A stretch of 64,000 nt of DNA from Spiroplasma sp. NBRC 100390 (GCF_001886495.1 NZ_CP018022.1:620001-684000); one strand, 5' to 3'. Shown: positions 12,731-47,619, counted from the stretch's first letter. Numbers and translations: made by a program. The notes: generated by a model from the sequence alone, not told the origin.

Positions 12731-12760
12731 ATTTTATTAAAAAAAAAAAAAAAAAGCAAA
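12731..12760 (-). promoter_or_regulatory. Poly-T-spacer promoter of lipoprotein 1
   Basis: Read on the minus strand: TTGCTT (12755-12760) as -35, a T18 tract (12739-12756) filling the spacer, AA, then TAAAAT (12731-12736) as -10. The spacer is 18 bp. The -10 lies about 46 bp before the ATG. The tract length is the likely switch by slipped-strand pairing, as in Mycoplasma hyorhinis vlp promoters. The same bases also form the U-tract of a hairpin, so termination is an alternative role. Confidence 0.55.
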
Positions 12761-12779
12761 GGGGTCCCCCTCGCTTTTC
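12753..12779 (-). terminator. Intrinsic terminator of lipoprotein 2
   Basis: Minus-strand hairpin with AAAAGC/GCTTTT outer stem and GGGG/CCCC inner stem, running straight into the T18 tract. It lies just downstream of the stop at 12800. It overlaps the probable -35 of the next gene. Confidence 0.75.
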
Positions 12780-12799
12780 AATTTTAAATTAATTTAGTT

Positions 12800-14380
12800 T
12801 TATTTTCTTTTAGCATAAAAATTACCAAAATAAACAGCAGATCAAGGCGAATAAGCAATTGAACCATAGAAAGTTTTATCTCCAAACATAAAACTAAAAC
12901 TATAACCTTTTCCACTAGCATTAATTTTTAAAGTATCATTGTCTTCTACATTTCATGTTGGATAGGTTTGTTTTAATTTACTAACCGCATCATCAATATT
13001 AAACAAATTAATACCTGGCAATTTATTAATTTCAGGACGATTAACAAAATCTTGCACTAATGGTTTTAACGAATTCATATAATTATTTGCTGCTTTCATT
13101 TTGTCAAAAACACTACTTGGAATATGAATAATTTGATGATCAGAATATACCTCAATTTGATATGTTTCGAAAAATTTTATAACAATTTGACTATATTCCA
13201 TTAATTTTGTTTTTAATCCCTCTTTTGAAATTGCAATAAGAACTTCCAATGGTTTTCCGGTATTACCTTCAATTACACCATTTAATGTTAACCCAGCAAC
13301 AGTTATTTTCGATAAATTAACAGTGAAACTAGCTAATTGTAAATCATTACCACTAATATTAAAAACATTTAATAGTTTCATTAAAAATTGATAAAATGTA
13401 TCTACACTAACCTTATTAGCATTAAAACGGCCCTCTCCTGCTCAAACATAAGCTGTATTCTCTGGCCGTGATGGAACAGCAACCCCACTTGTAACATCAT
13501 TTAATGCTCCCGTTTGTAATAACAATAACTCTTGGTCCGCGTTCCATGTAATATAATCTTTAATATTTGTTAATTCAGGGTCCTTATTGATTAAGGTTAT
13601 TAACTCTCTTTGAATAATATTGTCTAAATCATCATGGCGTTTTGAATAATTAATATAAAAATTATCATATAAACTAGTAAATTCTGGTGCTTTATCTAAA
13701 ATAATTTTGCCTTTTTCATTAAAGAAATTAACAATAACTTTTGATAATTTTGAAATAATTCCACTTTGTAATTCTTTTATTTTTGCAATATCATTTGAAA
13801 TGGTATATTGAATGACATAATCAGATGTCACAACATATGTTTTAAACTGAACTTGAAATCGAAATTTAAAGTCGATTCGTGTTGCTTTTAAACCTTTTAA
13901 ATTAGTTTCACCATTAATTTTTCCTAATGTTACAAGATCAATATAATTCAAAGTATAACTTGAATCATTTAATAATGTTAATGGTTTTGAATCAACATAA
14001 TAATTTGAATAATCGTTAATAATCGCATTATTAATGTTATTAAAAATAGCATTAAATTTAGTATCTAAAATATTTAAAACAGGTATAACATCAGGCATAT
14101 TTTTGTCTAAAACTTTTGTTGGTGATTCTTCAGTAACTAACGGGTATAATTTATCAAAGTCAACTTCAGAATAATCATTAGTATCAAGCATTGAACTATT
14201 TTGTGAATATTGTAAAAAAGCATTAGTTGCTCGTTTAGAAATTTTATCTAAAATTTCAATATCCTTAAAACTTCCTGTATTGTCATCAGATGATGTCTCA
14301 TGATTAACACAGGCAATAAGAGTTGTCCCAAAAACCCCACTTAAATTAGCAATTGCTAATAAACTTAATAATTTTTTCAT
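12800..14380 (-). CDS. Spiroplasma-type lipoprotein (tandem paralogue 2)
   Basis: A 526-residue protein with a signal peptide MKKLLSLLAIANLSGVFG and lipobox LIAC (Cys about residue 24), followed by a polar linker with a DDN cluster. It is predicted to be anchored on the cell surface. No known domain is recognised. It matches the adjacent gene at 11126-12685 in several blocks (NNINNAIINDYSNYY here against DNVNRQIVNQYPNYY there; FQVQFK against YQVQFK). The pair therefore arose by tandem duplication and has diverged strongly. The repeated long alpha-helical and beta segments suggest two similar halves. The promoter has a T17 tract (14432-14463). Function in adhesion or nutrient capture is possible but not shown. 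Confidence 0.88.
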
Positions 14381-14431
14381 TTGATATTTCCTCTAAAAAG
14401 TAATATACTTTTTTCTTTTTTATAAATAATG

Positions 14432-14463
14432 ATTATATTAACAAAAAAAAAAAAAAAAAGCAA
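14432..14463 (-). promoter_or_regulatory. Poly-T-spacer promoter of lipoprotein 2
   Basis: Minus strand: TTGCTT (14458-14463), a T17 tract (14443-14459), GT, then TAATAT (14435-14440), spacer 17 bp. An overlapping TATAAT sits 3 bp further on (14432-14437). The -10 lies about 55 bp before the ATG. A weak CAAGTA/TACTTG hairpin abuts the tract on the upstream side. Confidence 0.5.
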
Positions 14464-14519
14464 GTACAAATTTAAAAATTACTTGAAAATTACTGCGTCC
14501 AATTTTGTCCACTTACATT

Positions 14520-14680
14520 TTATCCTACGTTTATTAGTGACGATCCATTTCATTTACTATGAATACGTTCAAAATTATAAAAATGAACATATAATTTAAT
14601 ATCACTTATTGCTTCATCTATACTTTGATATTCATCACAATGTATTTTCAGATAATGCATTATGACCAATTTTTTAATAA
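14520..14680 (-). pseudogene. IS3-type transposase C-terminal remnant, frameshifted
   Basis: The minus strand encodes a decayed end of a DDE integrase-type transposase. One frame gives LKIHCDEYQSIDEAISDIKL continuing into YVHFYNFERIHSKWNG. This matches the IS3-family end pattern LK-x-x-x-...-Y-x-FYN-x-x-R-x-H, with Trp from TGA. A short preceding block NALSEN, equivalent to the D-N-A-x-x-E-S catalytic Glu region, is in another frame, so a frameshift separates them. There is no start codon, no upstream catalytic domain and no visible terminal inverted repeat. It lies between lipoprotein 2 and mtnN and marks a past insertion, perhaps of an IS or of a spiroplasmaphage carrying an IS3-like gene. 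Confidence 0.65.
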
Positions 14681-14694
14681 TAACTCCTTATTAT

Positions 14695-15366
14695 TTAATC
14701 TTTTAAAAATTTCATAATTAAATCACGAATTATCAAACTAACTTGGGGTAAATTTTTTTCAAATTGACTAGTTGCACTATCCCCGCTTGATTCTAAATAA
14801 TCACTGACAATCTTAATACTAATCATTGGCAAATGGTGCTTTGCAGCAACTTGAAAAAAAGCAGTTCCTTCCATATCAACAACATCAATTTTATCTTTAA
14901 ACTTTGTTTTAATATGGTTAAAATATTCTGCTTTATCAATGAAAATATCACTACTCCCTAAAACAGCTTGTTGACTATCTAATATTTTTGTTTCAGCTAA
15001 TGTTAACAATGTTTCATTACTATGATAACTACTTACTTCTCCAGGAATTTGTCCAATTGCATATCCAAATGCTTGTGCATCAGCAAAAGTGTAATATGCT
15101 TCGGAAATAAGCAAAACAGTTAATGGCGGTAACCGTTTTTTTAAACTCCCAACAGTTCCAATATTATAAATTGTTTTAATGGCATAATCATTAATTAAGG
15201 TTGTTAAACTCATCGTGGCATTTACTAATCCAATTTTACTAATTGCAAATAATCATGTTCCCTTTTGATATAATTTAATATCATCATACTTAATGATTTC
15301 AGTTGGTTGTAAAGCTACTATTGTTGCAGATAATTCAGCTTGCATTGCACTAATAACTAAATTCAT
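14695..15366 (-). CDS. mtnN: 5'-methylthioadenosine/S-adenosylhomocysteine nucleosidase
   Basis: The 223-residue product has the length of MTA/SAH nucleosidases of the PNP/UDP phosphorylase superfamily. These cleave adenine from MTA and SAH, removing by-products of SAM-dependent reactions. Recognisable are GTVGSLKKRLPPL (equivalent of the G-T-A-G loop), the FADAQAFGYAIGQIPGE segment matching D-x-T-x-FGY-x-x-GQ-x-P, the substrate-binding DMEGTAF, and the catalytic Asp region IVSDYLESS (family S-D-x). The start at 15364-15366 gives a full N-terminal beta strand (MNLVISAMQAEL). The gene ends 4 bases downstream of the nadD-HD stop codon (TAA 15371), so the two are probably cotranscribed. Confidence 0.88.
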
Positions 15367-15370
15367 CGTA

Positions 15371-16468
15371 TTATTTTCCTCGCTTTCATTCTTGATAAGT
15401 TAATTTAAGTTTATTTCCTAACAAAGCAAGACCCGTTTGCATCACAGCACGTTCAAATTGCATTGTTAATAATGCTTGAAATGCCTTCATTAAATCTTGC
15501 TCTGCTAAAGCACGATAACTTTCAATACCAGGATAATTTCGTTCCGCACTAATTTTATCAGCAACAAAAATTATCATTTCAAAGGGTGTCATTTGACGAT
15601 GACCAACAGTATGCCATTTTATTGCTGATAAAATTTCTTTATCAGTAAATAAAAGGTCATATTTTAAATAACAATATCCTGTATATGAATGTCAAGTTGG
15701 AATTGGTTCTTTTAAGAAACTTGGCAAATATTTTGTTAAATAAACCTCTTGTTTTTCTTTTGCTCATTGTTTTGTAATATCATGATAAGTTCCCGCAATT
15801 AACGCTTTGTGAGAATCAAAGCCATGTCGTAATGCCAATTCCTGGGCCTTTTTACCAACATTTAAACAATGTTGATAACGCTCAGCATCCATATTTTTAG
15901 CTAACCGTTCTGGCAAATATAATAAGTTATTATTGATATAATTTCTAATTGCTGGTAATTGTAAATTAACTTTTTTTCCTTCTCGTAACAACGTTGAAGA
16001 TAAATGTAAATTATTAGTAAAAGGAATTAAAAGTGCTTGATATTGTTGCAGAACACTTTGTTTAATCTGATCATCTCGTTGAAAAATAATAAATGTCTGC
16101 ATTTTTATTAGTTCAGCAATATTATTTCATTTCCCTAATGTTTGTAATTGATCAGACCCAATCATAAAGTAAAACTGATGCATAGGAAATTGTTGTTGTA
16201 ATTTTAAAACAGTATCGTAAGTTGTACTAGGTTTTGTGTTTTCTAATTCAATTAAATTAATTCTAACATATGATAATTTGCTAATTGCTAATTTAATCAT
16301 TGCTAATCGATCGTTAGCGGGAGATAGTTTTCGTATTTTAAAAGGGTTTTGATTTGTTGGAATAATTCATACTTCATCAATATCTGTTTTAGTTTTAACC
16401 AATTTAATCATTGCTAAATGATCAGTATGAAATGGATCAAAACTACCCCCAAATAACGCTATCTTCAT
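15371..16468 (-). CDS. nadD: NadD nicotinate-nucleotide adenylyltransferase fused to YqeK-like HD phosphohydrolase
   Basis: One 365-residue polypeptide. Residues 1-190 are an adenylyltransferase of NAD synthesis: GGSFDPFHTDHLAMI holds the nucleotidyltransferase GxFDPxHxxH motif, then WIIPTNQNPFK and FMIGSDQL. The ISSTxIR equivalent is LSSTLLREG. Residues about 200-365 are an HD domain with metal ligands in HCLNVGKKAQELA and AGTYHDITK, then KWHTVGH and VADKISAERNY. The latter set is typical of YqeK, a hydrolase of diadenosine tetraphosphate. The same NadD-YqeK fusion is common in mollicutes, while in Bacillus the two are adjacent genes. Start at 16466-16468 with GGAGG upstream; stop 5 bases before mtnN. 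Confidence 0.93.
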
Positions 16469-16530
16469 AATCCTTGCCTCCATCACCTAATTCTTTTTTA
16501 ACTTCCCCCAAAATGAAAAAGAAAGAATAA

Positions 16531-17229
16531 TTATTCATCTTTGTTTTTAATTCCTAATTCAACCAAAACATCTTCAACAGTGTCACGAACAATATGTTGA
16601 AATTGTTCAACGGATAAAGTAATTGTAAAATCATTATGTTGTTTTGAAACAGAATAATCTTCGTGCGATAATTTTTGTTTAATTTTAGTAATTTCTTTTT
16701 TATTCCCAGTAATTGCAATATTATCTTCTTTTGTTTGGTTTAACTCTTTCTTCTTTTTTGGTTCACCTTTTTGATCTAATTCTAACTTATGATCATCACG
16801 ATGTGAAATTTTAATTCGATCCATAATATATGCCATTCGATCATTAAAATTACGTTCTTTAATTTGATTTAACATTTGTTGGAATTCATTTGGCTTTGAT
16901 TGCGAACTATCACGAAGATGTTTTAATCGCTCTAACCGTTCTAATAAATTTTCATGTTCATTAACATTGTTTTCTTCTTTATACTTACTTATTTGACTCC
17001 GAGCGTTTTGAACAAGACTATGAATATTATTAACATTTTTTTGATCAACAGTTGGTTTTGTATTAATTTCTAAATTATCATCTTCTATAGCTGATAATGG
17101 TGTTTCACTAACAAAATTTTCTCTAAAATCAATGCCACTTGCTGCTTCAATATCATCATCAAAACTACTAGCTGACGCTAAATTAACAATTATATCCTGT
17201 TTTTTCTTTCTTCTAAATCATTTAAACAT
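16531..17229 (-). CDS. Hypothetical charged coiled-coil protein
   Basis: A 232-residue protein beginning MFKWFRRKKKQD, a basic amphipathic start that could touch the membrane. No transmembrane segment is seen. Residues 10-70 are acidic and probably disordered. Residues 80-160 are strongly helical with heptad-like Leu/Ile spacing (ENLLERLERLKHLRD, FQQMLNQIKERNF). A Lys/Glu-rich linker follows. The last 40 residues (TITLSVEQFQHIVRDTVEDV and on) look like a small folded helix. No family is recognised. The gene lies upstream of nadD in the same direction, 62 bases away with a GGAGG site for nadD in the gap, so it may head the nadD-mtnN transcript. Confidence 0.8.
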
Positions 17230-17320
17230 ATCTTTTCCTCTAACTTATATTATATATTATATAATAAATTATAAAATTTCTTGAAGTTTTTTCTAACAAT
17301 GTTATGATTATAATGTAATT

Positions 17321-17402
17321 GACAGAGGTAGCTTATTATTTTTAATAAGTTTGAGAAATACTCTTAGAACCTGATCTAGTTAAAACTAGCGGAGGGAGTT
17401 CA
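17321..17402 (+). ncRNA. TPP riboswitch (THI element)
   Basis: The conserved THI-box core is directly readable. A P3-type stem CTTATTA/TAATAAG (near 17332-17349) is followed by TTGAGA (17351-17356, consensus CTGAGA), then GAACCTGATC (17367-17376), a CTAGT/ACTAG stem, and GCGGAGGGA (17389-17397). This matches the RF00059 aptamer, which binds thiamine pyrophosphate. It lies about 95 bp before the thiamine transporter gene. A tataat at 17309-17314 is a possible -10. Downstream, CACAGAT and ATTTGTG (about 17448-17477) can pair just before the AAGGAGA ribosome-binding site. This may be the expression platform (inference). No strong terminator is seen in the leader, so translational control is favoured. 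Confidence 0.92.
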
Positions 17403-17496
17403 AATTGATTATTTATTAATTCAATAAATTTAGTTTGATCCTCATTTTCACAGATGTTAATTATAAAGTTATTTGTGTAAGGAGATTTTTTTATAT

Positions 17497-18522
17497 ATGG
17501 AGCAAAATCTAATTTTTAAATGTACTGTAAAACAACAACGAATTGTTTTATGATACAATAAATTAACAATTTTTATTCCAATTAGTTTATATTTAGCTTT
17601 TTTAATCACTCTTAGTGTTTTACCATTAGCAACACTAAGTACCATTTTGCACTTAGCAAATGATCAAAATTTTAAAAATATATCAATTTTTTTCATTGCA
17701 ATTTGTGTTCTTGGTTTAATTTTTAGTATTATATATACCATTAGTACTTGATTAACTACTTATGAAGAATATATTAATTATAAAATGCAATTTATTATTT
17801 TAAATATTATTAGTCTTAATATTCTTACTTTAATTAGTAATATTATTATTTATAGTTATGAAGTCAAAGTTAGTGATGTCCTTTTTTCAAAAGCAAGCAA
17901 GAAAAAACGATTCTTAATTAATTTAGGAATTTGAAAATGAAAAACATTTGATTTTGTGATTATTGCAATGTTTGCCGCAGTAACCCTTGTCTTAGCTTTT
18001 TTAGAAACACTTATTCCGATTTTACCACATGGTGGAAGTATCGCTTTAAAATATATTCCATTAACAATTATTGCTTTTATTCACTCAGCACTAGCTGGAT
18101 TTATCACAGGAGCAATTAGCGCATTAATGTCGCTTTTATTTATTTCGTCAGGTTTTATTGTTTCACCGTGATCATATTTATTAGATTACTTTATTCCAAT
18201 GATTGTGCCTATGATTGCTGGATTTATGCGTTTTAAGGTTAATAACGATAAAAAGTACATTACATATATTAATTATATTATTATTTGTTTTAGTATTATT
18301 AGTTTAATTTATGTTTCACAAGTTGTAGTTGGCGCTCTAATTTGAACAACGTTATTCCCTGATTCAGTTTGACCAGGCTATACTAATTGATTATATTCAA
18401 TTGTTTATAACTTTATTCATAATTTTATTTTCACTTATCCAATTATGCAAATTGTGATTCCGCTAGCGTTGCGGGGTTTAACTCCCGTCTTTTGACAACG
18501 TTATTTGAAATATGAAGGTTAA
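17497..18522 (+). CDS. thiT: ThiT-like energy-coupled thiamine transporter with N-terminal membrane extension
   Basis: The 341-residue product has a C-terminal half (about residues 150-341) matching ThiT/YuaJ. It has the FETLIPILPHGGSIAL-type loop (LEIPI...P-x-GGS in the family), a G-x-x-G-x-x-x-A-L-M helix, and about six membrane segments. ThiT is the substrate-binding S component of an ECF transporter that brings thiamine into the cell. The shared ECF module is not in this window. The N-terminal 150 residues hold about four extra hydrophobic segments not usual in ThiT (normally about 190 residues). A TPP riboswitch precedes the gene, which independently supports thiamine as substrate. Start 17497 has AAGGAGA about 11 bp upstream; closed by a strong hairpin. 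Confidence 0.88.
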
Positions 18523-18530
18523 AAAACTTA

Positions 18531-18562
18531 AAAAACTAGGTGTTTTTTTCCCTAGTTTTTTT
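18531..18562 (+). terminator. Shared terminator of thiT and the convergent membrane-protein gene
   Basis: A perfect 10-bp repeat AAAAACTAGG/CCTAGTTTTT with a 10-nt T-rich loop. The minus-strand gene stop (18536-18538) lies in its left arm, so it can serve both directions. Confidence 0.85.
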
Positions 18563-19306
18563 ATTATTATGAAGGTTTATTTTTTTTAATAATAATTCTC
18601 ATCATGTGTCATGCAATTTGACTTTTGTTTGTTGATGATAAATTGGTTTAAATAAATAAATGAGTAACAATCCTAACCCAATAATTGGAATTCCTAAAAT
18701 AAAACTAATTAAGAACTGTCATGGTCGTGCTAAATCTTTTAATCCCAATGCTCAAGCAATATCACCAACAATATAATTCTCACCAAAATATTGGTTAAAT
18801 AATTCCACTGTGACAATAATAATAATTCCGGTGATAAAACTAGTTTGAATTGTTTTTCGTGAAAACTGATAATTTGTTAAACCATATAAATAAACATACA
18901 TAAAACCAAATAAAGTAAACGTATGACCAAAATAAAAAACATAATAACTTCATTCTAATATTGTTGGTTGTTTACTTGGAAAAATTAATGTTAAAATTGG
19001 TCCCATAATTCCTAATGGAAAAAAACAATCTAAAAAAATTTTATTTGGGTAAAATAACATTATTAATGCTACTCAAGCGACAATCGTACAAGAATATAAG
19101 GTAAAATAATTTGAAAAATGTTGTCATCCGCCATGACTTAACATTTCTCACATCCGATCTGCTTCCACAATGACTAGCCAAATTGCAATTCCAACTCGTA
19201 AATAACAATACTTGGTTGTTTTTGCATAAAAATTTGGAAAAATTCATAACGTTGTTCATAACAAAACGGATAAAATAATTGCTAAAACCCACGAAAAAAT
19301 AACCAT
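18536..19306 (-). CDS. YwaF-like (TIGR02206) polytopic membrane protein
   Basis: A 256-residue integral membrane protein with about seven hydrophobic segments. It has the pattern of the TIGR02206/YwaF family: an early acidic-basic pair in a helix (IVEADRMWEML), a HTFTLFGFMYVYLYG segment, and a late NQYFGENYIVGDIAWALG-like motif (family N-[YF]-[ML]). The molecular function of the family is unknown. The C-terminal tail is basic (LLLKKINLHNNKKTREKNT), and its end runs into the shared terminator. The frame is read with several TGA Trp codons, including a WW pair. Convergent with thiT; start at 19304-19306. Confidence 0.75.
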
Positions 19307-19356
19307 TTAATAAACTCCCCTTTTAGTTTTTTCTATGTCATTAATATTTTATCTTA

Positions 19357-19884
19357 TTATCATGTTAATTGATATAAAACATGTTTTGATAATCAATTAG
19401 TTTTTGCTAAATTTGGATGATAAAACTCTTGTACTTTTTGCATCCCAAGTTTTTTCATAACATTTTCTGATCGATGATTAAAAACACTGGTAAAACTATA
19501 AATTGTTCGAAAAGGTAAATTATTTTTAGCATAATTTAAACATCCTCGTGCTGCTTCAGTTGCAAAGCCTTGTCCTCAAGCTGATTGTTTTAACCTTCAT
19601 CCAATTTCAACACAGGGGGTAAAATCAACAGGGAAAGTAACATTATTAAAACCACAAAAACCAAGAAATTCATGTGTTGATTTTGCTTCAACAACATATA
19701 AACCATAACCGTTGGTTTTAAAATCAGTTTGAATTTTAGCATAAAAATCAGTTGTTTCTGCAGCTGATAAGACCTTTGGAAAATATTTCATTACCATTTG
19801 ATCAGCATTTAATAATTGAAATGCTGATAAATCAGTAGGTTTTCACATTCGAATTATTAGTCGGGGTGTTTCAAATAAAATCAT
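19357..19884 (-). CDS. GNAT acetyltransferase, RimJ/RimL type
   Basis: A 175-residue protein with the layout of the RimJ/RimL branch of GNAT enzymes, which acetylate protein N-termini or small amines. It begins with a strand ETPRLIIRMWKPTDL, the family start E-T-x-R-L-x-L-R. It also has FLGFCGFNNV, EIGWRLKQSAWGQGFATEAARG as the acetyl-CoA site (Q-G-x-G-x-A-x-E-A), and IYSFTSVFNHRSENVMKKLGM as the N-x-x-S-x-x-V-x-x-K-x-G-M motif. All key positions are present, so it is probably active. The substrate is unknown. It lies downstream of transketolase but separated by a hairpin, so it is likely expressed on its own. Confidence 0.9.
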
Positions 19885-19917
19885 TTGGTACTCCTATTTC
19901 TAATTAAATCATAAATA

Positions 19918-19953
19918 AAAATGTAATTATCATTATTTTGATAATTGCATTTT
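19918..19953 (-). terminator. Intrinsic terminator of tkt
   Basis: A 15-bp stem (19918-19932 with 19939-19953, one U-G type mismatch, loop ttattt) with A/T flanks. It contains the tkt stop codon (19933-19935). Confidence 0.85.
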
Positions 19954-21900
19954 TTTACTAATGGCATTAACAATATTTTCAACATTAAAACCAAAATATT
20001 CTAACACATCGTGGAATGGTCCTGATTGACCAAAAGTATTGATTCCAAAGTTTAATCCCGTATTTGAAGTATAACGTTCTCAACCAAAGGTTGTTCCTAA
20101 TTCAATCGAAGCAATTAACGCTGTTGGTTCCAACAATTTTGTTTTATAAGTAATATCTTGCTTATCGAATAATTCTCATGATGGCATTGAGATTACTTTT
20201 ACATTGATCCTTTTATCATGCTCTAATTTTTTCGCAACCGCAATAGCCATACTTACTTCACTACCTGTTGCAATTAAAACAACATCATTATGATGCTCTG
20301 AACCATAAACTTGATATGCTCCCTTTTTGACCATTTCAACGCTAGAATGTTCCAACTCTGGTAAATCTTGACGTGTAATTAAAATAGCACTTGGAGTATG
20401 ACGAGACTGCAGCGCAAGATGATAAGCTCCTAGTGTTTCATTAAAATCTGCTGGACGAAAAACATTTAAATTTGGTTGACTTCGTAACATTGCTAATTGC
20501 TCAATTGGCTGATGTGTTGGTCCATCTTCACCAACAGCAATAGAATCATGTGATAAAACATAAATAACTGGGATTTCCATTAGTGAACTTAACCGAATTG
20601 CTGGTTTCATATAATCAGCAAAAACAAAAAAGCCACTAGCAAATGGTAATAAACCACGATGTAAACATATTCCATTATTAATAGCTGTCATTGCAAATTC
20701 ACGAACTCCATAGGCTAGATTACGTCCCTTGCGATTTTCTGCGCTATAAACACCATCTGCTCCTTTTGCTTTGGTACTCCCACTTAAATCAGCACTACCA
20801 CCAATTCAATTTGGAATAATGCTTGAAATGCGTTCAATAATAGCACCACTACTAATGCGGGTTGCTTGCGGTTTCGTTGGTTTTAAGTCAAGAAATTGTT
20901 GTGGATCAAAAGTAAAGTTCCCGTGAATTGCTTCATCGACTTCTTTTCCTAAAGCTGGGTTTTCCTGACAAAATGCTTCATACATTTTTAACCATTGTTC
21001 ATATTTTTTAATTCCACGATTTTTAACATTAACTTCAAAATCATCATAAATTTCACCAGGAATTTCAAATGGTTTTTCGGTTCATCCTAATAAATTACGA
21101 ACGGTTTCAATATCTGTTCCTAACGGTGCACCATGAACTGCTGGTGTCCCTTGTTTGGTTGCTCCAAATCCAATTATTGTTTTTACTTCAATTAAAGTTG
21201 GTTTATCACTATTTTTTGCTTTAATAATAGCTTCGTTAATTGCTTCAACATCATTACCATCTTTAACAAAAAGATAATTTCAATTTGCTGATTGAAAACG
21301 ATCGCCAATTTTTTCACTTTGTGCAACATTAACCATATTATCTAATTGAACATCATTTGAATCAAATAGGACAATTAATTTATTTAACTTTCAATGTCCG
21401 GCTAAAGAAATTGCTTCTTGAGTTACCCCTTCTTGTAAATCACCATCACCACATAAAACATAAGTATAATGATCAAAAAGCGAATATTTTTTCGTATTAT
21501 ATTTTGCTGCCAAATGTGACTCTGCTAATGCTAAGCCAACTGCCGTTGCAATTCCTTGTCCTAATGGGCCAGTAGTAACATCAACCCCTGGTGTTAAATA
21601 TGACTCAGGATGACCAGGAGTAATTGAATCAACTTGACGAAAATTTCGTAAATCTTCAATGTTAAGGTCAAATCCTGATAAATGTAATAAAGAATATAAT
21701 AAAGCACTCCCGTGTCCTGCCGCTAAAACGAACCGATCCCGGTTAGTTCATTTATCAACTTGCGGATTAACATTTAGATGCTTAGTAAATAAAGTATAGG
21801 CCATTGGCGCAGCCCCAAGAACAATGCCCGGATGCCCTGAATTAGCTTTATTAATTGCTTCAATTCCTAACATTCTAATTGCATCAATTGATTTTTTCAT
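19933..21900 (-). CDS. tkt: Transketolase
   Basis: The 655-residue protein has the standard transketolase length and motifs: [15 protein letters not shown] at the start, [13 protein letters not shown], and the TPP/Mg site [14 protein letters not shown] with [12 protein letters not shown]. The pyrimidine domain follows with [15 protein letters not shown], then the C-terminal domain with [10 protein letters not shown]. It interconverts sugar phosphates between the pentose phosphate pathway and glycolysis using thiamine diphosphate. In a mollicute without an oxidative branch it supplies ribose-5-phosphate. Its stop lies inside a terminator hairpin, so the gene is probably monocistronic. The neighbouring thiamine transporter and dxs share the need for TPP. 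Confidence 0.96.
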
Positions 21901-22389
21901 TCTGTATTCTCCTTTTTTTATACACTGTTTAATTAATATTCATATTAACATTGTACAACGAATTAAAAGAAAGATATTTATAATTTGCAAAATAATTATT
22001 TAAATCTTACTTTTTTCTAATTATTAATTTATAATAAGAAAAAGTTGGCATTTCAAAATAGAAAAAGAGTGATGGTAATGGTTAAATATTTGTTTAAGAG
22101 TCGTGATGATGTCCTTTAGCTTTGCCAGAAGGAAGCATTTTAAAATACATAATAATGAATGGAGAACGTTATATGCAAAAGATGTTAAATAATATTATAT
22201 TTGAAACAATTCACTCTTCTTTTTGGTTGATAATCTCAAATTTTATTTTTGATTATAAAAAATAAAAAATTTTGATGATGCAAAAAAGAGTTAAAAAACA
22301 AAGCTATTATTTCTTAAATAATAGTAAAATTAATTTATATAAAATAACACCGAAAACAAAACAAGAAAGCAAAGGATGTGATAACAAAA
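21901..22389. other. Intergenic region between divergent tkt and MFS genes, no convincing gene
   Basis: This 489-bp stretch holds the upstream regions of two divergent genes. A plus-strand open stretch (about 22121-22266) reads PLALPEGSILKYIIMNGERY and on but has no credible start. Short ATG-led frames before it close after 17 and 28 codons. It may be a decayed gene. AAGAGTGA near 22066 and TCACTCTT near 22206 are inverted and could close a long RNA stem. Confidence 0.5.
22304..22324. promoter_or_regulatory. Inverted repeat upstream of the MFS transporter gene
   Basis: A perfect 9-bp repeat CTATTATTT-ctt-AAATAATAG lies 66 bp before the MFS start codon. It has no T-run, so an operator or leader hairpin is more likely than a terminator. 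Confidence 0.4.
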
Positions 22390-23616: not shown

Positions 23617-23638
23617 ATTATAATTTAATTTTATAATC

Positions 23639-23683: not shown

Positions 23684-23724
23684 ATTAAATTTATCCTCTT
23701 TTAACAATAAGAATCATGTCTAAA

Positions 23725-35865: not shown

Positions 35866-35904
35866 TTTTCTGTCCTCTTTCGTTAAAAGTGTTATTAATT
35901 CTTT

Positions 35905-36411: not shown

Positions 36412-36412
36412 C

Positions 36413-38554
36413 TTAACCTCCTAAATATGTTGTTACAACTTTATTAATGATATTTTCAAATGTTTTAACAACCATTACTTCATCAATATTATTTCGTGTT
36501 AAAAAGCGATATAAGAATGAATTTGATAATTTAATATCACTTTCTGCTGTTAACGCATTGTAATTAAAATTGAACTTACTATGACTAGTTGGTTTACTTA
36601 ATTTAACATTGCTATTAACATATGACATCATTGTTACATAATTTGGTAATAAGTTTAATTTTTTTAAGTACATAATTTTATTGTTCATATTAACTCCGTA
36701 GGCAATGGCATCTAATCGTGTTGAGGGATTAAAATCAGCAACAACATTATTGTTTGGATCAGGATTTGCAATTGAAGGATAAGCAAACATTGTATCACCA
36801 GCAATATAAATTAAACCAGTATGTTCATCATAATCAGCTGATCAATATGCTGTTTCGGTCCATCCATTTAAAAGATAACGCATATAATGTGGAGCATTTT
36901 CTTTTAATAAAGCTAATTGAATATAAGAACTTACCCCGGGTTCAGAACGAATTAAATTAAACGTATTATCAGCATCTAATGAATACTGACCCGTAATATA
37001 TCCTTTATCATTTCGTTGTTTTACTAAATTCATAAATTTACTATTTTGTTCATTATAAATATCTAAAAAATAAATATGTAGAATATCAACCTCATATGTT
37101 GCTGGATCATTATAATCAATATCACGTTCTCAATCACAAGCTGCTAATTTAATATATTCACGGTTAGGATCATATTTCTGAATTAATGTTAAATATTTGC
37201 CAATTGTTGAACCGGGTAATTCATCAATATAAAGATATGGAGTAACAGTTTGTGTTCATTTCGGTTTAACTGTTTTAATATGATTTAACAATTGTTTTAA
37301 AAATCATTCGTTATTTCTAATCCCGTCTTCAACATACATATTCATACTAATTGGCATATAGTCTTGTTTATCTTCATCTCAAACATTATTAGTTTTATAA
37401 GTTTTATTTCAAGCGGCTTGTCACCCACTTAATAAAGCTTTTGTATAACCAACCTCTGCCATTTTGTTCATATAATGATCTCATGCTTTTCAATCTTCAT
37501 CCGCAATGTATAATCTTTTTTGCTGATTATACCGTCATGGTAAAAATGTTTGAACTTTGTTTCCATCCAATCAATTATTATGCCATTCGGTATTTTTTCG
37601 TTCATTTAATGAAATTGAACTTTGAAAATAATCCATCCCTAAAACATTATGTAAATAAGTGTTCTCTTGTTTTCAATAACGATCTCAATTATAATCAATA
37701 TATTCGATATTATCATATTTGTTTTTAATAATATTTGGAACTTGATAATTATTATAGTAAGCAGCACTTCAACCAAAAAATGAATAAATATTAAAATCAG
37801 ATTTTTTTTGTTCTGTTGGCAATAATAAGTCAGCAACTTTAACTTGAATTTCATTTTCACTTAAAAGTACATTAGTTTGTTTTGTTCCCGGAACATCACC
37901 AGTTAATTGAACATTAACAGTATAATTTCCTGGATTAGCCACAACTTTATCTTTAAAGCTCATAATTTTGATTCATAAAATATAAACTTTATTTTTATAA
38001 GCATTTTTTTCAATTGAATTTGTAGTAATTGCATCAGGAACTAATAATTTTTCATTAATTCCATATGGATTTGGAATTCGTTGAGTTGTTAACGAATATG
38101 ATGCATAAATAAAACGATTAAAACCAATCTGAATTGTCAGATTGTTTTTTTCTAACTCAGCAGCATTAGTAACAGTTGCGGTTAAATTAGTAATATCATA
38201 GTTGTTTGTTTTCAGAACTAATTGTGTATTAATAAAATCTTGTTTTCATAATTGCAAATTAACATTAGGATTAATACAATTATTATAATTTTCTAAATTA
38301 CCATAAAACTTAGCATTTTTTAAATCATTGCTTAATTCATTTGGCTGATATAAAGCATAATTATCATGTTGACTACCAAAAAAAGTGTGAACATAAGGAG
38401 TTTTATCTTTACTTTGACTTTGCGTTGTTGGTTGACAACCCTCTAATCAAACACTTCGCATAAAACTATCCTTTTTCACAAATAAAACAATTGTCACTAC
38501 AGTAGTAAAAATAGTTAAAAATAAAATTAATGACATTGCAATCTTTTTAAACAT
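36413..38554 (-). CDS. DUF4091-like extracellular glycan-processing protein
   Basis: A 713-residue protein anchored by one N-terminal transmembrane helix (MFKKIAMSLILFLTIFTTVV). It has no lipobox Cys, so it is probably a signal-anchored extracellular protein. The N-terminal 250 residues are beta-rich. The following region looks like a TIM-barrel glycosidase: YIDELPGSTIGKYL (family YxxDEP), VDILHIYFLDIYNEQNSKFM, KGYITGQYSLDADN, and ENAPHYMRYLLNGWTETAYWSADY as the barrel end. This is the layout of DUF4091 proteins, which are related to glycoside hydrolases. Many Trp codons are TGA. It is the second gene of the five-gene operon, 30 bases after the lipoprotein. The catalytic residues cannot be proven by eye. 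Confidence 0.6.
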
Positions 38555-38584
38555 TTATAAATTCCTTTCATATTTTTTACTTAA

Positions 38585-40756
38585 TTAATATAAGAAATAA
38601 ATTTGTTTTCACGCTCCACTTTGAGTTGACCCAATTCCGTTCGTAATTTCACCAGAACGAACATAATTATCAATTTTTGTAATAATTCACATTGGTTGTT
38701 CTAAATTACCAACATTAGTTCATTCAATATGGTATTTATGACTAACTGGTTTTAAATTATCTGACAATCCCAATCCGCTATATGCAATGTTTTCCTGCTT
38801 ATTATCAATACTATAAAACTGTTTTGGATTGTAATGATCATCATAAAATTGATCATTAACATTAATTTGATTAGTATGACTTTCAGTATACAATTTTGTT
38901 ACTGAACTATCACCAACACCATTATATTCAAAATCATATGATAAACGTTCTTCTGCTCCTACCACTTTTTGTGTATATTGTGGATTACTTACTTTTCAAT
39001 ATTTATCATCAACAACATATTGTAATACGTTTTCATGTAAAGTTTTCATAACATTATTAACACCAGCAAAGAAAGGACTATTACTATTAAAAAATAAGTA
39101 ATTATAATCTTGATAAGCAATAGCGGTTGGATCAGAAATAGCAACTAGTAAATGTTGTAATAATGAATTTTTTTCAAACTTGTTTGTACTATTATTTCAA
39201 CCCATTGTTTTTAAAACATTATTTAAATTAGTTGTTGTTAACTCTTCAAAAGAATTTGCTAAGTTTTGATAACCACTTAGAGTTGTCAAAATATCATTAT
39301 CATTTGTTAAAGTCTTAATTAAATCTGTTAAATCAAAGAAGATATTTGATAAAGTAAATTTAAAATTAACTTTATCACCTTGTAAAGCTAATAAAATATC
39401 TAGTAATTGTTGTAAACTTGTTTTTTGTGCTTGCTCTGAAGCTCACCAAATTGCAGTTTTTATTTTACTAGCCAGACTATCAATAATATTATTTGTTATT
39501 TTAAGATTTAATGCTTTTTGGGTTGCTGGGGATAATTTTTTCCAAATATTTAGTAGTAATTCACCAACATGACCAATATTTTGATAGTTTCCAGCAAGAT
39601 TATTATCATTATAAGTTTTAAAATCAGGAATTTTTTTATTCATAATGGCATTTGTTAAATTAAAATTATGATATCCTTTGCTTGTTTCATCTTTTAACTT
39701 TGTTAATAGTTCTTTTGTTTCCGGACTTTGTTCCACTAATTTTTTTAATTCATCATTAACTTCACCACTTGATAAAAATCCTCAAAAACCACTATCAATT
39801 CCCGCCAAAGAATTAATTTGTGCTAAAAATTCACTAATAATTACTCGCAATAAAACATAAATTGGATTTGTTTCTACTTGAGCATCTTTACCAATAAAGT
39901 TAAAAATATTATTTAAAAACATTGCCCCAATTTGAGCACCTAATGGATTTTCATCAACTTGATTTAACATTGATAAAAATTGCGCCGTTTTACCATAAAT
40001 TGCCGTTAAAGTTGAGGTTTTTTCAATTGTATATTCATTATCACCGAATTCATATTGTGGTTTTAAACCAGTACTTTGTTCAGTATCAATAAATAAATTT
40101 TTTTCTTTAACACCAACATGTTGGTTATTATAGAAAGGATTGGTTGATAAGCCCATTCCTCCTGCGGGATAACTAACATAGAAAGCACGCGTTGCTGGAA
40201 TTCAGAACTTAATACCAACATTGTTCATTAAAGCTGACAAAGCACCCATATCATAGTTATAACCTAATAATTCACTACGATTAGCATCAATTTGTTGTTT
40301 TGCAGGGTCAAAAAAACCATTCGCAAGAAAATCACGATAATAAGTATTATCATACATTCCAATATAATATTGTGGTAACAATTGTTCACGGGTTGACTTA
40401 GGATCAGCATTTTTTGTGTGTGCAATCATTTTATTGTAATTGTTGTTAAAATCTTGAATTAATTTTGATAAATTAATTTTTTGATTATTGTAAGTATAAA
40501 TACTTGGAATTGATTTTCAATATGCTGCTGGAGCATATAAACTTCGCACAAGTTCACTTGGATTAAAATTTAAATTTTCATGACGTGCTAATAAAGTAAT
40601 TTTTGTTAACAGTCCTGTTGTATTAATCATATTACGAAGTTTTTCAGGAATATCATTGTTATTATCATTATCACCCTTATGACGACAAGCTAATAACGGC
40701 ATACTATTTCCAACCACAACAGTTGAAATAGCAAAAAAACTTAATAATTTTTTCAT
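38585..40756 (-). CDS. Large lipoprotein heading the surface operon
   Basis: A 723-residue protein with signal peptide MKKLLSFFAISTVVVGNSM and lipobox LLAC (Cys about residue 24). A low-complexity DNDNNND linker follows, then a mainly helical extracellular region containing repeated Leu-rich helices (for example LLILLALQ-like blocks, TNNIIDSLASKIKTAIWWAS). The last 150 residues are beta-rich (YDFEYNGVGDSSVTKLYTESH). No family is recognised. It is the first of five genes in one direction (38585 back to 30169) with gaps of 1-39 bases. Its promoter carries a T17 tract at 40811-40827, so the whole operon may be phase variable. A groEL terminator hairpin overlaps that promoter. Confidence 0.85.
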
Positions 40757-40802
40757 AAGATAACGCCTTTCCTTTGTACATTATAAAAATACATACTTTT
40801 CT

Positions 40803-40830
40803 ATTTTAATAAAAAAAAAAAAAAAAACAA
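40803..40830 (-). promoter_or_regulatory. Poly-T-spacer promoter of the surface operon
   Basis: Minus strand: TTGTTT (40825-40830), a T17 tract (40811-40827), AT, then TAAAAT (40803-40808), spacer 16 bp. The -10 lies about 47 bp before the ATG. A second TATAAT occurs near 40782-40787. The tract is also the U-run of the groL terminator hairpin. Confidence 0.5.
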
Positions 40831-40846
40831 GTAAAACTTGTTTTTT
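40822..40846 (-). terminator. Intrinsic terminator of groSL
   Basis: An 11-bp hairpin AAAAAACAAGT/ACTTGTTTTTT with a 3-nt loop runs into the T17 tract on the minus strand, 22 bases after the groL stop. It overlaps the probable promoter of the lipoprotein gene. Confidence 0.85.
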
Positions 40847-40868
40847 GTTTAAATAAAATTCCTGTTTA

Positions 40869-42497
<1,629 letters not shown>

Positions 42498-42504
42498 TTA
42501 AAAT

Positions 42505-42780
42505 TTATTCTTCAATAATACCTAAAACATCTTCTACAGAAATTAAAACTAATTTTTTATTATTATATTCAACTTCGGTTCCAGCATATTCACGATAAAG
42601 AACTTTATTATTGATTTTTCCTTCAAATGTTTGTTCCTTTTCAACTTCGGTACTAATTGCAATTATTTTTCCGATATGACTTTTGCTTTTTTCATCTTCT
42701 TGTAAATAAATTCCATTAATGAAAGTTTCTTCTTTTTCTTCTTTTGCTAAGACAATATTTTTGCCCAATGGTTTTATCAT
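42505..42780 (-). CDS. groS: 10 kDa chaperonin GroES
   Basis: A 91-residue co-chaperonin starting MIKPLGKNIVLAKEEKEE, with the beta-barrel pattern NKVLYREYAGTEVEYNNKKLVLISVEDVLGIIEE at the C-terminus. The mobile loop that binds GroEL is atypical: TFINGIYLQEDEKSKSHIGKI replaces the usual G-G-I-[VY]-L-P-[DS] (IYL-Q matches in part). It is slightly short (usual 94-96). It sits directly before groEL, sharing one transcript. The start ATG 42778-42780 has GGAGGG upstream, so the in-frame extension toward 42903 is not used. No CIRCE element is seen. Confidence 0.93.
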   Translation of the reverse strand: MIKPLGKNIVLAKEEKEETFINGIYLQEDEKSKSHIGKIIAISTEVEKEQTFEGKINNKVLYREYAGTEVEYNNKKLVLISVEDVLGIIEE

Positions 42781-42917
42781 CAAAAATCCCTCCTTATTTA
42801 TAATTTTTAGCAAATGGCATATGTAACTGCCAATAATATATTTAACAAATTTTATTAATAAATGCAAGCATTTTTGTCTCATAAACAGAAAAAAATAAAT
42901 CATAATTTTTGAGAAAG

Positions 42918-42959
42918 AAAAAAGAATTAAGTAATTTAAAAATTACTTAATTCTTTTTT
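42918..42959 (-). terminator. Strong intrinsic terminator upstream of groSL
   Basis: A near-perfect inverted repeat of 19-20 bp (42918-42937 with 42940-42959), AAAAAAGAATTAAGTAATTT and its complement, with a very short loop. It closes the membrane-protein gene at 43063-43803. Confidence 0.85.
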
Positions 42960-43062
42960 AAAATATAGTTCTTAAAGAAATATTTGTTAAATATTCTTAA
43001 TAATAACATTTTAAAAACTATCAATAAAATTAAATATTCCAATAATGTCATATTGTCAAAAC

Positions 43063-43803
43063 TTATAATACTTTTCCTTTTTTATTTCGAAGATTACTTA
43101 AATAATTCAATATAATTGCTAAACCAACCACAATAATCAATAAACTAATAATACCAACAAAAAAGATTGGAAAACCAACTTCAAATGGATTTAATTGATC
43201 ATATGGAAACGGAGTAAATGCTTTTTGTCCTTCAGAGATAAAGTTTACTAGCATTATGCCTCGTACTGAAACATAAAGTAAATAAAAGATAATTAAAATT
43301 AAATTATATCAACTATACTTTTTACAATACTGTTTTGTTCCAACACTTTTTGTTGTAAACAAAAAATAATAAACAATGACAATAATTGGCACTAACATAT
43401 GTTCTAAAACTGATTTTAAAATTTTATATCATGTATTAAAACCAACCACATTTGTCGGTGAAATTAATAATGTGGTATTAAAAACAATAAAGCTTATTAC
43501 ATTTAAAGTTGTAATTCGAGTCAAATTATTTTTTCCAGTAATTCAGTCTGGCATATTTTTGGTATGGTAATGAATCCAGTTTAAAATTCCATAACCTGCT
43601 GTTGCTAAAGCTACTCATACAGATAAATAAATTGACTGATTAATAATTGAGAAATCAAAATTTCTTGTTGCATCACCATATTGTGGATCGGGTTGAATTG
43701 TTGAAAAAAATAAGTCCAATAATACACAAAACAACGGAATAATCGCAAATATAACATAAAAACAATACTTTATTTTTAAAGATCTTTGCCCTATTTGTTG
43801 CAA
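43063..43803 (-). CDS. Polytopic membrane protein, possible Pr6Pr-like family
   Basis: A 246-residue integral membrane protein with about six to seven hydrophobic segments. Between them lie short loops containing NTWYKILKSVLEHMLVPIIVIVY (an H-x-x-[VL]-P segment as in Pr6Pr-type proteins) and a C-terminal basic tail NKKGKVL. The family assignment is uncertain and no function is known. There is no in-frame ATG at the start; TTG at 43801-43803 is the best start, with AGGGGG 11 bases upstream. Its promoter contains a T18 tract at 43860-43877. The gene ends just before a strong hairpin. Confidence 0.65.
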
Positions 43804-43851
43804 TTTAAATGGCGCCCCCTTTTTTTATATTACCTTAGTAATATATTTTTT

Positions 43852-43882
43852 ATTATGCCAAAAAAAAAAAAAAAAAAGACAA
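43852..43882 (-). promoter_or_regulatory. Poly-T-spacer promoter of the membrane-protein gene
   Basis: Minus strand: TTGTCT (43877-43882), a T18 tract (43860-43877), GG, then CATAAT (43852-43857), spacer 19 bp. The -10 lies about 48 bp before the TTG start. A weak hairpin GGCAA/TTGTC abuts the tract. Confidence 0.45.
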
Positions 43883-43972
43883 TATTTTTGCCTTAATTTT
43901 TAAAAATTTTAATAAAATATAATTTTGTCATTATTTAATTTACTTTGAGTTTTTTATCCATTATTTTTATAA

Positions 43973-44480
43973 TTAATGATTATTTTGTTCATCTTCGGGT
44001 GGTTCCACAACTGTAATTTCAGCTGAAAACTTGCTTCCTGAAACATATTCTTGATATTTTTTTACAGTCTTCAATTCTTCAACTGATAATTCTTTACCAG
44101 TTAGTGCTATTAAACTAGCATTAATCTCTTTATCAGTAGTTTTTTTAGTAATCGTAATGGTGATTTTATCACCTTCCTTTAATGGAAAACTGACATCCTC
44201 TCCTAATTTATAGTTAAAACTAAATCCAAAAATAAAAAATGCTGTTTCCTCCTTATTACTAATTTCTTTTTGTTGTACTTCAGTTAAAGCATTTATAAAA
44301 AAAAGTATACAAAATAATGGCAGATACTTCGTCATCACTTTTAGCACAATATAACTTTGTACTAAAAATAGTTGCTTTTAATCCTTTGATTGTTTCATCA
44401 GTATTTTTACAAGCCATAACAGGCATTACACTAGTGGCAGTTAAACCAAAAATCCCTAATATTGCAAGAATTTTTTTCAT
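43973..44480 (-). pseudogene. Lipoprotein gene interrupted at an A8 run (phase variable or decayed)
   Basis: The first frame starts at 44478-44480 with MKKILAILGIFGLTATSVMP and lipobox VMAC. It runs to a TAG at 44260 and encodes SDDEVSAIILYTFF before the run of eight A (44297-44304 on the plus strand). The following frame, without its own start, continues NALTEVQQKEISNKEETAFF and on to a TAA at 43973. It carries repeated [KR]-x-TT-x-KE-[IL] and GKELSVEELKT elements and ends EPPEDEQNNH. Changing the run by one base (A7) joins the two frames into one lipoprotein of about 168 residues. This fits either slippage-controlled on/off expression or a simple pseudogene. The gene lies between the membrane protein and the chitinase. 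Confidence 0.65.
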
Positions 44481-44652
44481 TTTATTTTCCTTCCTAAAAT
44501 ATTTCTATTAGTAAATTGTGTCTAATTAATAATCAAATCACGTTCTTTCATCTCAAATTATAACATAAATATAAAACCCTTGATATTAACTTTTATTTTT
44601 CATTTATCAGTTTAAGCATTTTAGAAACACAGTTATAAAAAACAAATAACAT

Positions 44653-44677
44653 AAAAAGAACCCAATTTTCGGGTTCC
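44653..44677 (-). terminator. Intrinsic terminator of the chitinase gene
   Basis: A GGAACCC/GGGTTCT-type stem with loop GAAAATT and a following T5 on the minus strand, about 40 bases after the chitinase stop. Confidence 0.85.
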
Positions 44678-44713
44678 TATTAATGATATATTAATTAGTA
44701 GTTTACTAATATT

Positions 44714-45781
44714 CTATCGATAAAATTCATTTTGATATGTTTTAACAAACTCTCAATCTGTAACTGCATCTCAGTTAACTGATCAAGTCATCATTCCTTT
44801 TAAATAAATGTTTTGTTCTTTTAATAAGTCAGTTGCTTTTTTAATATCCTGAGCTTTAATTTGACCATTTGCTGCTGCATCATTGTTTGCTGGTAATCCT
44901 CATAATAATTGGTTGGCTGGAATTTGAAAAAAATTATCTTTTCCTTGCACAATATATTTTGCAATTAAATATAAGAATTCTGCTTTATATTTGGTATCAT
45001 TTTGTGTCAACCATCAACCATTAAAACCTAATGCTTCTTGTTCTTCAATTGGAACATTAACTCCATCCCCAGCTTGATTATAAAATTGTGGAGCAATAAA
45101 ATCAAGGTGTATACTTAAACCTCGCAAATATGGTAAATATTTTCCTTGACCTGCACTTGTTCGTAAATATGGAAATTCTGGTGCCATTGTAATTAAAAAT
45201 TCTTTGTTATAGAACTCTGCATAATAATTTTTAAGAAGCACTAAAACTCTAGGAATAATATCCTCATTTTCTCCAGCACTAATTGCTGATTGTTCTAAAT
45301 CAATATCAATTCCATCAAACCCAAACATACTTACTAACTTTCTAATTTCTTGAGTAAAAGCTAGTTCGTCATCAGATTTTAAAGAAATATGTGCATCAGC
45401 ACCACCTAATGATAAAATAACTTTTTGTCCACGCTCTTGTACTAATTGAACTTGATTAGCAAAATAATCATTTTTTTCATCTTGCGTAAAGTGCGGTTTA
45501 TGTGGTACTTCTGGAATAAAAGTTGGAATTTCACCAGTTTTATATGATTTCATAAATGAAACATTAATAAAATCATATTCCTGATTAACATCAACTAAAT
45601 CAATATATTTGGCGGTCCCGCCTTGATATCCAGCACCATTATCTCAGTTATGTCAGTAACCAACTAAAATTGGTTTGTGTTCTTGCGAATTATGATAAGT
45701 AGTAAAATTACTATTTGCTAATGATAACGGAGCACTTGTAACTAACGTCAATGTACTCATTAATGATATTAAACCATTCAT
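44714..45781 (-). CDS. Secreted GH18 chitinase
   Basis: A 355-residue glycoside hydrolase family 18 enzyme that cleaves beta-1,4-GlcNAc polymers such as chitin. It has a signal peptide (residues 1-25, NGLISLMSTLTLVTSAPLSLA) without a lipobox, so it is probably secreted. The catalytic DxxDxDxE motif is intact as DGIDIDLE at about residues 156-163, with E163 the acid. LSLGGADAH is the SxGG motif, and FIAPQFYNQAG and MTWSVNWD are the later strands. The start at 45779-45781 is preferred over an upstream ATG because AAAGGA is then 10 bases away. Monocistronic, with its own terminator. It points to an arthropod-associated life. Confidence 0.93.
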
Positions 45782-45927
45782 AATGATCATATCCTTTCAT
45801 TGTATAGTATTTTCAGTGGCTTTCCCTACCTTAATTTTACTAAGGAAAAATAAAAAAGTAAATAATAAAATCTTTTTAAAATAAGAAAGATTATAATTAT
45901 TTACTTACAATAGAAAGTTTTGTTGTT

Positions 45928-47532
45928 TTATGCTTGTCAACGTAGTTTTCAACCAGCAACTCCAATATAGGCTCCAATTAAGCCTAACGAAACCCCCAGA
46001 TAAATACCATAAGTTGGTGTAAAAACAAAATCTTGTCCACTTCATGCTTTTAAGAAGGGATCCATTGTATATTTAAATGGGTTAATATAAGTAACATACT
46101 TCAATACATCACTACCATTAATTAATTCTGCTGGAATAAAAGCCCCACTTAAGAAGGCAATCGGCATAAAAATAACATTTGACCCAGCAATAAATGAGGT
46201 TGTTGATTTAAAAATTGAAGATAACATCATTCCTAATGAAATTGTTGAAATAAAAACTAACACAACAAACGGAACTGCTGGTCCAAAGTGATTTGGCGCC
46301 GCAACTTCTTTTCAACCAAAACTTGGTCCAAAGAAAATTCCTGCTCATAATAATGTTCACAAAAACGATATAATAATAAAAATTAATCCAACGAACATTA
46401 CTGATAAAACAAAGAAAACTGGTTTAATATTTGTTGCTCCAATTCGCTTCATTAAAACACTATTTTTAAATTCTAAAATTGTTTGTGGAATAATAAAAAT
46501 TCCCACCGACATTGCTTGTACCATAGCAATTGAACCAACTAAAGTATGAATATTTTGCCCTGGATTGTCATTTAATTGTTTAAAAGCAAATCCGTTTAAA
46601 AATAATAATAAAATAGGATATACAATTAAAAAGAATGGTACAAAGAATCCTTTATAATAGTATTTTAACATTAAGTCAATTAATGGTTTGTTTTTACCAC
46701 GAACACGACCATCGCAAATTCATTTATCGACTTTATTTACCCGTGTGCTTTGCTTGCTTTGTTTGACCATTTTTTGAAATTGCTGATCTAAATCAGTTTT
46801 CTTGTTTTGTTCAAACATTTGTCAAGTAAAGTTATGAACTGAACCATATTTTTTTACAATATCTTTGACCATTCCGGCCTCTTTAATTTCACCATTATGA
46901 ACATAAATATATTTTTCACAAAATTCTTCAACTTCACTCATCATATGGGTTACTAAAAACATTGCTTTTCCTTTTTCAACAATGTTCTCGCGTAAAAAAT
47001 GAAAAATTTCTGACCGAACCTCAATATCTAACCCGGTTGAAATTTCATCTAAAATAACTAAGTCTGGGTCATGGATTACTGACAATAAGATATTTAACCG
47101 TTGTTGTTGTCCCCCAGAAAGTCCTTCGACAAATTTGTTTTCCATTCCAATTAGTTGATATGTCCGTAATAATTCTCGTAACTGACTATCAGTCATTGGA
47201 ATATTAAATGTATTTAAATAGTATTTAATCATATCCATAACTGAAATTCCAATTGGATATTTTGATTCTTGGAACTGAAGACCAATGGTTAAGTTTTCTT
47301 GACGAACTACTTTTCCGGCCGTTGCATGCCGAATCCCACCAATAATTTCACTTAACGTTGACTTCCCACTTCCATTAGCACCAATAACCCCAATTCGATC
47401 ACCAGGATTAATAACTAAATTAACATTATTTAAAGCAACTTTATTTTTGTACTTTTTTGTAACATCAATTACTTCAACTAACGGTTTGGACGCATCAATC
47501 GCTTTGCGTTCTTTTACAACTGTTTGCTTCAT
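45928..47532 (-). CDS. ABC-2 exporter with ATPase and permease fused in one chain
   Basis: A single 534-residue open frame. Residues 1-236 are an ABC ATPase: Walker A GANGSGKS at 51-58, QFQESKYP, LSGGQ at 138-142, Walker B LVILDE at 158-163, and switch LVTHMMSEVEEF. A charged linker (about residues 237-287) crosses in-frame TGA Trp codons. The last 250 residues are an ABC-2 permease with about six membrane helices, LMKRIGATNIKPV, and FLSGAFIPAELINGSDVLKYVTYINPFKYTMD, the classic ABC-2 block. The family usually has these on two genes, as at 2268-3795 here. The promoter has a T17 tract (47597-47613). The exported substrate is unknown. Confidence 0.9.
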
Positions 47533-47588
47533 AGTTTCCCCTTTCCTAGCTATATTTATTCAATTTTAATTAATAAATATGCTTGTTT

Positions 47589-47619
47589 ATTTTATCAAAA
47601 AAAAAAAAAAAAAGCATAA
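47589..47619 (-). promoter_or_regulatory. Poly-T-spacer promoter of the fused ABC exporter
   Basis: Minus strand: TATGCT (47613-47618, weak -35), a T17 tract (47597-47613), GA, then TAAAAT (47589-47594), spacer 18 bp. The -10 is about 57 bp before the ATG. A weak hairpin after nusB abuts it. Confidence 0.45.

Follow-up and report, generated by a model that had tools for sequence, protein, structure and literature searches.

Poly-T tracts of 16-18 bases upstream of lipoprotein and other genes in Spiroplasma sp. NBRC 100390: candidate slippage-prone promoter spacers

Five poly-T runs and the genes behind them

The stretch of DNA analysed here (the window) covers 64 kb, bases 620001-684000 of the 1,199,621-bp genome of Spiroplasma sp. 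NBRC 100390, and carries five pure runs of 17 or 18 T, each lying upstream of a gene for a lipoprotein, a membrane protein or an ATP-binding cassette (ABC) exporter. The genes all lie on the minus strand; the runs are T on the sense strand and read as A on the plus strand. The genome uses translation table 4 and contains the spiralin family. A first-pass annotation, made from the sequence alone, had described a common layout in which each run is followed after two bases by a -10-like box, and a direct check of the sequence bears this out.

The first tract (T17, 12739..12755; its end had been placed one base too far, at 12756) has TTGC at its 5' edge (12756-12759) and TAAAAT at 12731-12736, two bases past the run, with an implied spacer of 17. 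The second (T17, 14443..14459) follows TTGC (14460-14463) and is succeeded both by TAATAT at two bases (14435-14440) and by a perfect TATAAT at five bases (14432-14437), for a spacer of 17 or 20. The third (T17, 40811..40827) lies between TTG (40828-40830) and TAAAAT (40803-40808), with a spacer of 16, and is also T17 in the related genome G005. The fourth (T18, 43860..43877) lies between TTGTC (43878-43882) and CATAAT (43852-43857), with a spacer of 19, and is T22 in G005. The fifth (T17, 47597..47613) precedes TAAAAT (47589-47594); it is T20 in G005 and T8 in another relative, G002, where the flanks are the same and the downstream one is nearly identical. Its 5' edge is TATGC (47614-47618), so that, as first described, four runs begin at a TTG-like box and one does not. 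The distances from tract to start codon are, in coordinate order, 53, 62, 54, 56 and 64 bp. That no other homopolymer of this length occurs in the window also holds, the next longest being only 9; a first-order model of the window predicts about 0.09 runs of at least 16, against the five observed.

Clear lipoboxes, transmembrane segments and domain matches agree with the gene types initially assigned, namely three lipoproteins, one polytopic membrane protein and one ABC exporter. The lipoprotein genes encode 519 aa (MKKLLILFGVTLIPTAATTSIISC, 11126..12685), 526 aa (MKKLLSLLAIANLSGVFGTTLIAC, 12800..14380) and 723 aa (MKKLLSFFAISTVVVGNSMPLLAC, 38585..40756). The first two belong to a 15-gene tract-bearing family and the third lies outside it; the five had been called several unrelated surface genes, a description that fails for this pair. 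The membrane protein (43063..43803, 246 aa, TTG start, about five transmembrane segments) has a paralogue at genome position 492812, likewise with a T17 tract. The exporter (45928..47532, 534 aa) combines an ATPase and an ABC-2 permease (ABC_tran and ABC2_membrane); a paralogue of its ATPase, at genome position 983541, has T17 upstream here and T34 in G005. Elsewhere in the window, a thiamine pyrophosphate riboswitch was recognised at 17314-17414 on the plus strand (Rfam RF00059, 63 bits), in a mollicute.

A distinct population of long T runs in the genome

The five runs belong to a genome-wide set of 44, two of them 16, thirty 17 and twelve 18 bases long. Only one run measures 10-15 bases, and 18 is the maximum. 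From the composition of the window, a first-order model would give about 1.7 runs of at least 16 and over two hundred of at least 10 in the whole genome; because only one run of 10-15 exists, the length distribution is two-moded, and the long runs form a population that is far over-long and sharply set apart from ordinary runs. Wherever a gene could be recognised, the tract lies at least 36 bp upstream of its start codon, which leaves switching of the coding frame unsupported. An origin from a single element or a copied cassette was also rejected, since most tract flanks are unrelated and orthologous sites differ chiefly in tract length.

Promoter-like boxes are concentrated at the edges of these tracts. 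With the -10 hexamer counted on the sense strand at offsets of -1 to 5 from the tract end, 26 of the 44 have one within one mismatch, compared with 18% of control T6-9 runs, and 15 have a perfect TATAAT, compared with 1.4%; the commonest offset is 2. A TTG no more than two bases from the 5' edge accompanies 19 of the 26 tracts with a -10 box and only 2 of the 18 without one. Both edges are thus occupied in 19 of 44 tracts, against 1.4% of 2385 T6-9 control runs (p ~8e-24), and implied spacers range genome-wide from 14 to 20. The TTG side and the -10 box are locally well conserved with respect to G005 and G002, a modest signal (34 pairs) that is in part an edge effect of anchoring.

The tracts are also associated with a class of genes. 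In a 463-kb genome sample treated with a simple gene caller, a T run of at least 15 lies within 130 bp upstream of 13 of 46 predicted lipoprotein genes and of 6 of 293 other genes (odds ratio 19, p = 1.5e-8). Fifteen tract-bearing genes make up one paralogous lipoprotein family, whose other members lie outside the window; in the sampled stretches, the tract is retained in 12 of 15 clear family members from NBRC 100390 and 10 of 13 from G005, at lengths of 16-36. Other tract-bearing genes encode membrane proteins, ABC exporters, a spiralin-domain lipoprotein, phosphotransferase system (PTS) components, a major facilitator superfamily protein and MraZ. One family lipoprotein gene (L022, genome ~698423) has its reading frame broken after about 79 codons, with T17 still upstream, and intact paralogues exist. 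A short gene behind a T18 tract (L019 1629-1895, genome 532960) encodes an 88-aa peptide (MTKLTIKQTKQLSGGKISGAF...) that looks like a bacteriocin-type peptide with a double-glycine leader and has no Pfam match.

The spiralin-domain gene with a tract, at 742098, is a paralogue and not canonical spiralin. Canonical spiralin has T8 at the equivalent place here and T8-9 in six relatives. It was rejected as the chief example, since all seven citri/poulsonii-clade genomes checked show T8-9 in its promoter. In these seven (L176-L182), the T8-9 run ends three bases before TATAAT, a short version of the same layout.

Tract length in isolates and relatives

Tract-length variation is well supported. In a flank-anchored comparison, 21 orthologous sites have a long tract both here and in G005, and 18 of them differ in length. 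The paired lengths (this genome/G005) are 17/16, 18/23, 17/18, 17/19, 17/16, 18/21, 17/19, 17/17, 18/22, 17/20 and 17/19 for the first eleven sites, and 16/17, 18/19, 18/17, 17/16, 17/20, 16/21, 18/18, 17/20, 17/34 and 18/18 for the remaining ten. The tract has been kept at these sites despite a difference of about 10-30% in the 60-bp flanks. Lengths in G005 are mostly 16-24 and reach 36. Since the tracts sit at conserved orthologous sites in G005, an assembly artefact is an unlikely source of those seen here.

At the orthologous sites, G002 carries just 7-8 T or a run that is interrupted, as in the T8-G-T7 of a family lipoprotein. The 400 kb sampled from this genome (L095-L114) contain no homopolymer longer than 9, where two relatives have T17-20 at orthologous sites. 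These short runs may reflect a real loss of long tracts and could in part be an artefact of base calling or assembly; the interrupted runs are no base-calling artefact.

Closer relatives have been compared in the literature. The sister isolate TU-14 has a genome of 1,199,640 bp (PMC5256206), and NBRC 100390 differs from it by eleven 1-bp deletions, four 1-bp insertions, one 12-bp deletion and two single-nucleotide polymorphisms, all fifteen 1-bp indels lying in homopolymeric intergenic regions whose sites are unnamed there (PMC5347229). These published differences sum exactly to the 19-base gap in genome size. The 44 tracts far exceed all other homopolymers of the genome in length, and the fifteen indels may lie within them. 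In the tsetse symbiont sGff, with 98.5% average nucleotide identity to TU-14, most indels between isolates again affect homopolymers, and the authors regarded them as possible artefacts of assembly (PMC12408004). The mismatch-repair gene mutS was not found in any of 21 genomes searched (NBRC 100390 and 20 related ones), while it is present in 11 of 14 controls, in agreement with PMC8208695.

Similar tracts are found in G007 and G004, with a smaller promoter-like share in G007, and near-identical lipoprotein genes form a set in G012, their T16-18 reaching almost to TATAAT. In those G012 genes (L228, L231-L233; MKRLLTLFSVFVLGFG), the run stops a few bases before TATAAT and its length differs among copies. 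A collection-wide scan for TTGC-T14-N1-6-TATAAT returned 17 scattered matches, in other phyla and one Mycoplasmopsis, and none in another Spiroplasma; a looser pattern gave a few matches in G004, G005 and G012.

Promoter-spacer slippage, its competitors and known switching systems

The tracts may be hypermutable poly-T spacers within sigma-70-type promoters, stretching from a TTG-containing -35 region to the -10 box. DNA polymerase, working without mutS, would slip on the tract, and T residues would be gained or lost; the -35/-10 spacing would then move around its optimum of about 17 bp, and transcription of the gene would go up or down. With dozens of such loci, a population could become a random mixture of surface types. 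This assumes that the TTG/-10 pair acts as a working promoter, that tract length would alter transcription and that surface variation would be useful to the cell. Judging from sequence comparison, stochastic surface variation caused by such slippage, of the kind known for the mycoplasma genes vlp and maa2, appears reasonably probable. The first-pass annotation had already proposed a promoter-slippage switch, and it is supported in part, by the position of the tract between TTG and -10 boxes, the lipoprotein association, the variation at orthologous sites and the confinement of the isolate indels to intergenic homopolymers. It calls for revision on two points: a third or more of the tracts cannot be recognised as promoter spacers, and most tract-bearing lipoproteins belong to one family.

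Several observations weigh against slippage-driven switching. The -35 match consists of TTG only, with TTGCTT scoring 3 of 6. Nor do the tract sites stand out when the sequence is scanned for a consensus promoter. About 18 tracts, including those before mraZ, PTS genes and at gene-less sites, have no -10 box and yet are equally long. G002 is almost devoid of long tracts and yet keeps genes and boxes. At T17, a consensus from short reads may be off by about one base, and the calls for NBRC 100390 were made by mapping to TU-14 (PMC5347229). Finally, the vpma genes of Mycoplasma agalactiae have a T-tract just upstream of the -10 box that plays no part in switching, which is brought about by Xer1 recombination (PMC2268961). 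The resemblance is a direct one, with poly-T immediately upstream of -10 in a surface lipoprotein promoter. Our confidence goes no further because this tract shares the position and does not switch, and vpma is, in our analysis, the chief reason for caution in inferring function from layout.

The same example favours the strongest competitor, namely that the tracts are a mutational by-product of an AT-rich genome without mismatch repair, in which a T run that has passed about 9-10 would grow to about 17 and surface-gene promoters would tolerate it, with little regulatory meaning. Non-promoter tracts are also 16-18 long, and lengths shift with the species and not with the locus, as the values for G005 and G002 illustrate; the tract beside mraZ is a terminator tail, T17 in NBRC 100390, and in relatives the plain hairpin there is followed by only T7-8. 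Such a by-product would not be expected to show the strong enrichment before lipoprotein genes and between TTG and -10 boxes, the retention at 21 sites within diverging flanks or the comparable lipoprotein set of G012, and we regard it as rather unlikely. In our own reading, slippage across the whole genome probably settles at 16-18, a balance to which promoters are then exposed, and the length is not chosen locus by locus, because non-promoter tracts are equally long and the most frequent length changes with the species; this would also account for the missing lengths between 9 and 16. Promoter spacing alone was rejected as the cause of this length, given the equally long non-promoter tracts.

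It is more doubtful still that the tracts as a whole are intrinsic terminator tails of the upstream genes, a change in their length affecting not initiation but read-through or slippage of RNA polymerase. About 25% of tracts come after a hairpin of -5 kcal/mol or below, compared with 4.5% of shuffles and 10% of T7-9 runs; most tracts nonetheless have no hairpin, and 26 of 44 have a -10 box. Hairpin and promoter boxes coincide at the window tract at 12739 and at genome positions 493972, 722342, 1111123 and 1164305. At 12739, a GC-rich hairpin (GCGAGGGG...CCCCTTTGC, 12756..12774 on the minus strand, -10.0 kcal/mol) abuts the T17, forming a terminator-like element that overlaps the promoter, and the tract, 44 bp downstream of one lipoprotein gene, leads into the next. 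A bolder form of promoter-spacer slippage would count about 40 poly-T switches genome-wide, including elements that terminate one lipoprotein gene and promote the next, where one slippage would change both read-through and initiation; we put this forward as a tentative idea, unlikely in its full extent. A fixed structural element, in which the T-tract bends DNA or keeps a rigid spacing for constitutive expression, largely irrespective of its length, would suit the narrow 16-18 range in this genome and the conserved position beside -10, and is made very improbable by orthologous tracts of 7, 8, 16, 20, 22, 23 and 34, by the T8-9 of canonical spiralin promoters and by the isolate-level indels (PMC5347229).

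Phase variation has not been reported for Spiroplasma in the literature searched. These bacteria are insect symbionts and pathogens of plants and arthropods, whose lipoproteins contact the host and whose fast evolution and loss of phenotypes are often remarked upon. A genome-wide set of about 40 switches, as in the bolder reading above, would give Spiroplasma its first known phase-variation system and could underlie the fast phenotype change seen in Spiroplasma symbionts. Should the isolate indels (TU-14/NBRC 100390, sGff) represent slippage at lipoprotein promoters, existing reads and RNA-seq data hold the test, and long-tract G005 against short-tract G002 offers a natural comparison.

In the vlp system of Mycoplasma hyorhinis, the on-state is reportedly a run of 17 A. 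The system comprises multi-copy surface lipoproteins, turned on and off by random insertions and deletions in a promoter homopolymer (PMC10502178, PMC2268961). Both systems thus have a homopolymer in the promoter of multi-copy surface lipoproteins; it is poly-A on the sense strand in vlp, whereas it is poly-T in Spiroplasma, where the tracts also differ by occurring in another genus, at dispersed chromosomal loci and before several unrelated families, membrane and transport genes included, and where we infer the switching. The vlp layout itself is seen in G018, a relative from another family of the order, where runs of A13-17 on the sense strand, of variable length and mostly 50-80 bp before paralogous lipoproteins, stand beside GATAAT-like boxes. 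About 19 such tracts (L245-L263), most of them upstream of paralogous lipoproteins, constitute a vlp-like variable lipoprotein set. With its homopolymer on the strand opposite to that of NBRC 100390, G018 serves as an independent example of the known vlp-like kind.

The spacer of the Mycoplasma mycoides vmm promoter is a dinucleotide repeat. There, as at maa2 of M. arthritidis, indels between -35 and -10 switch the transcription of a surface protein (PMC2268961). These are single loci, whereas dozens are present in Spiroplasma. A simple repeat between -35 and -10, as in the vlp/maa2 type, is found here at 19 of 44 tracts, with only the TTG part of the -35 box recognisable; control of surface genes, another feature of this type, is reflected in the lipoprotein enrichment and the 15-member family. 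Mechanisms of this kind have been described before; judged by the literature searched, the novelty lies in the genus, in how many loci there are and in their overlap with terminators.

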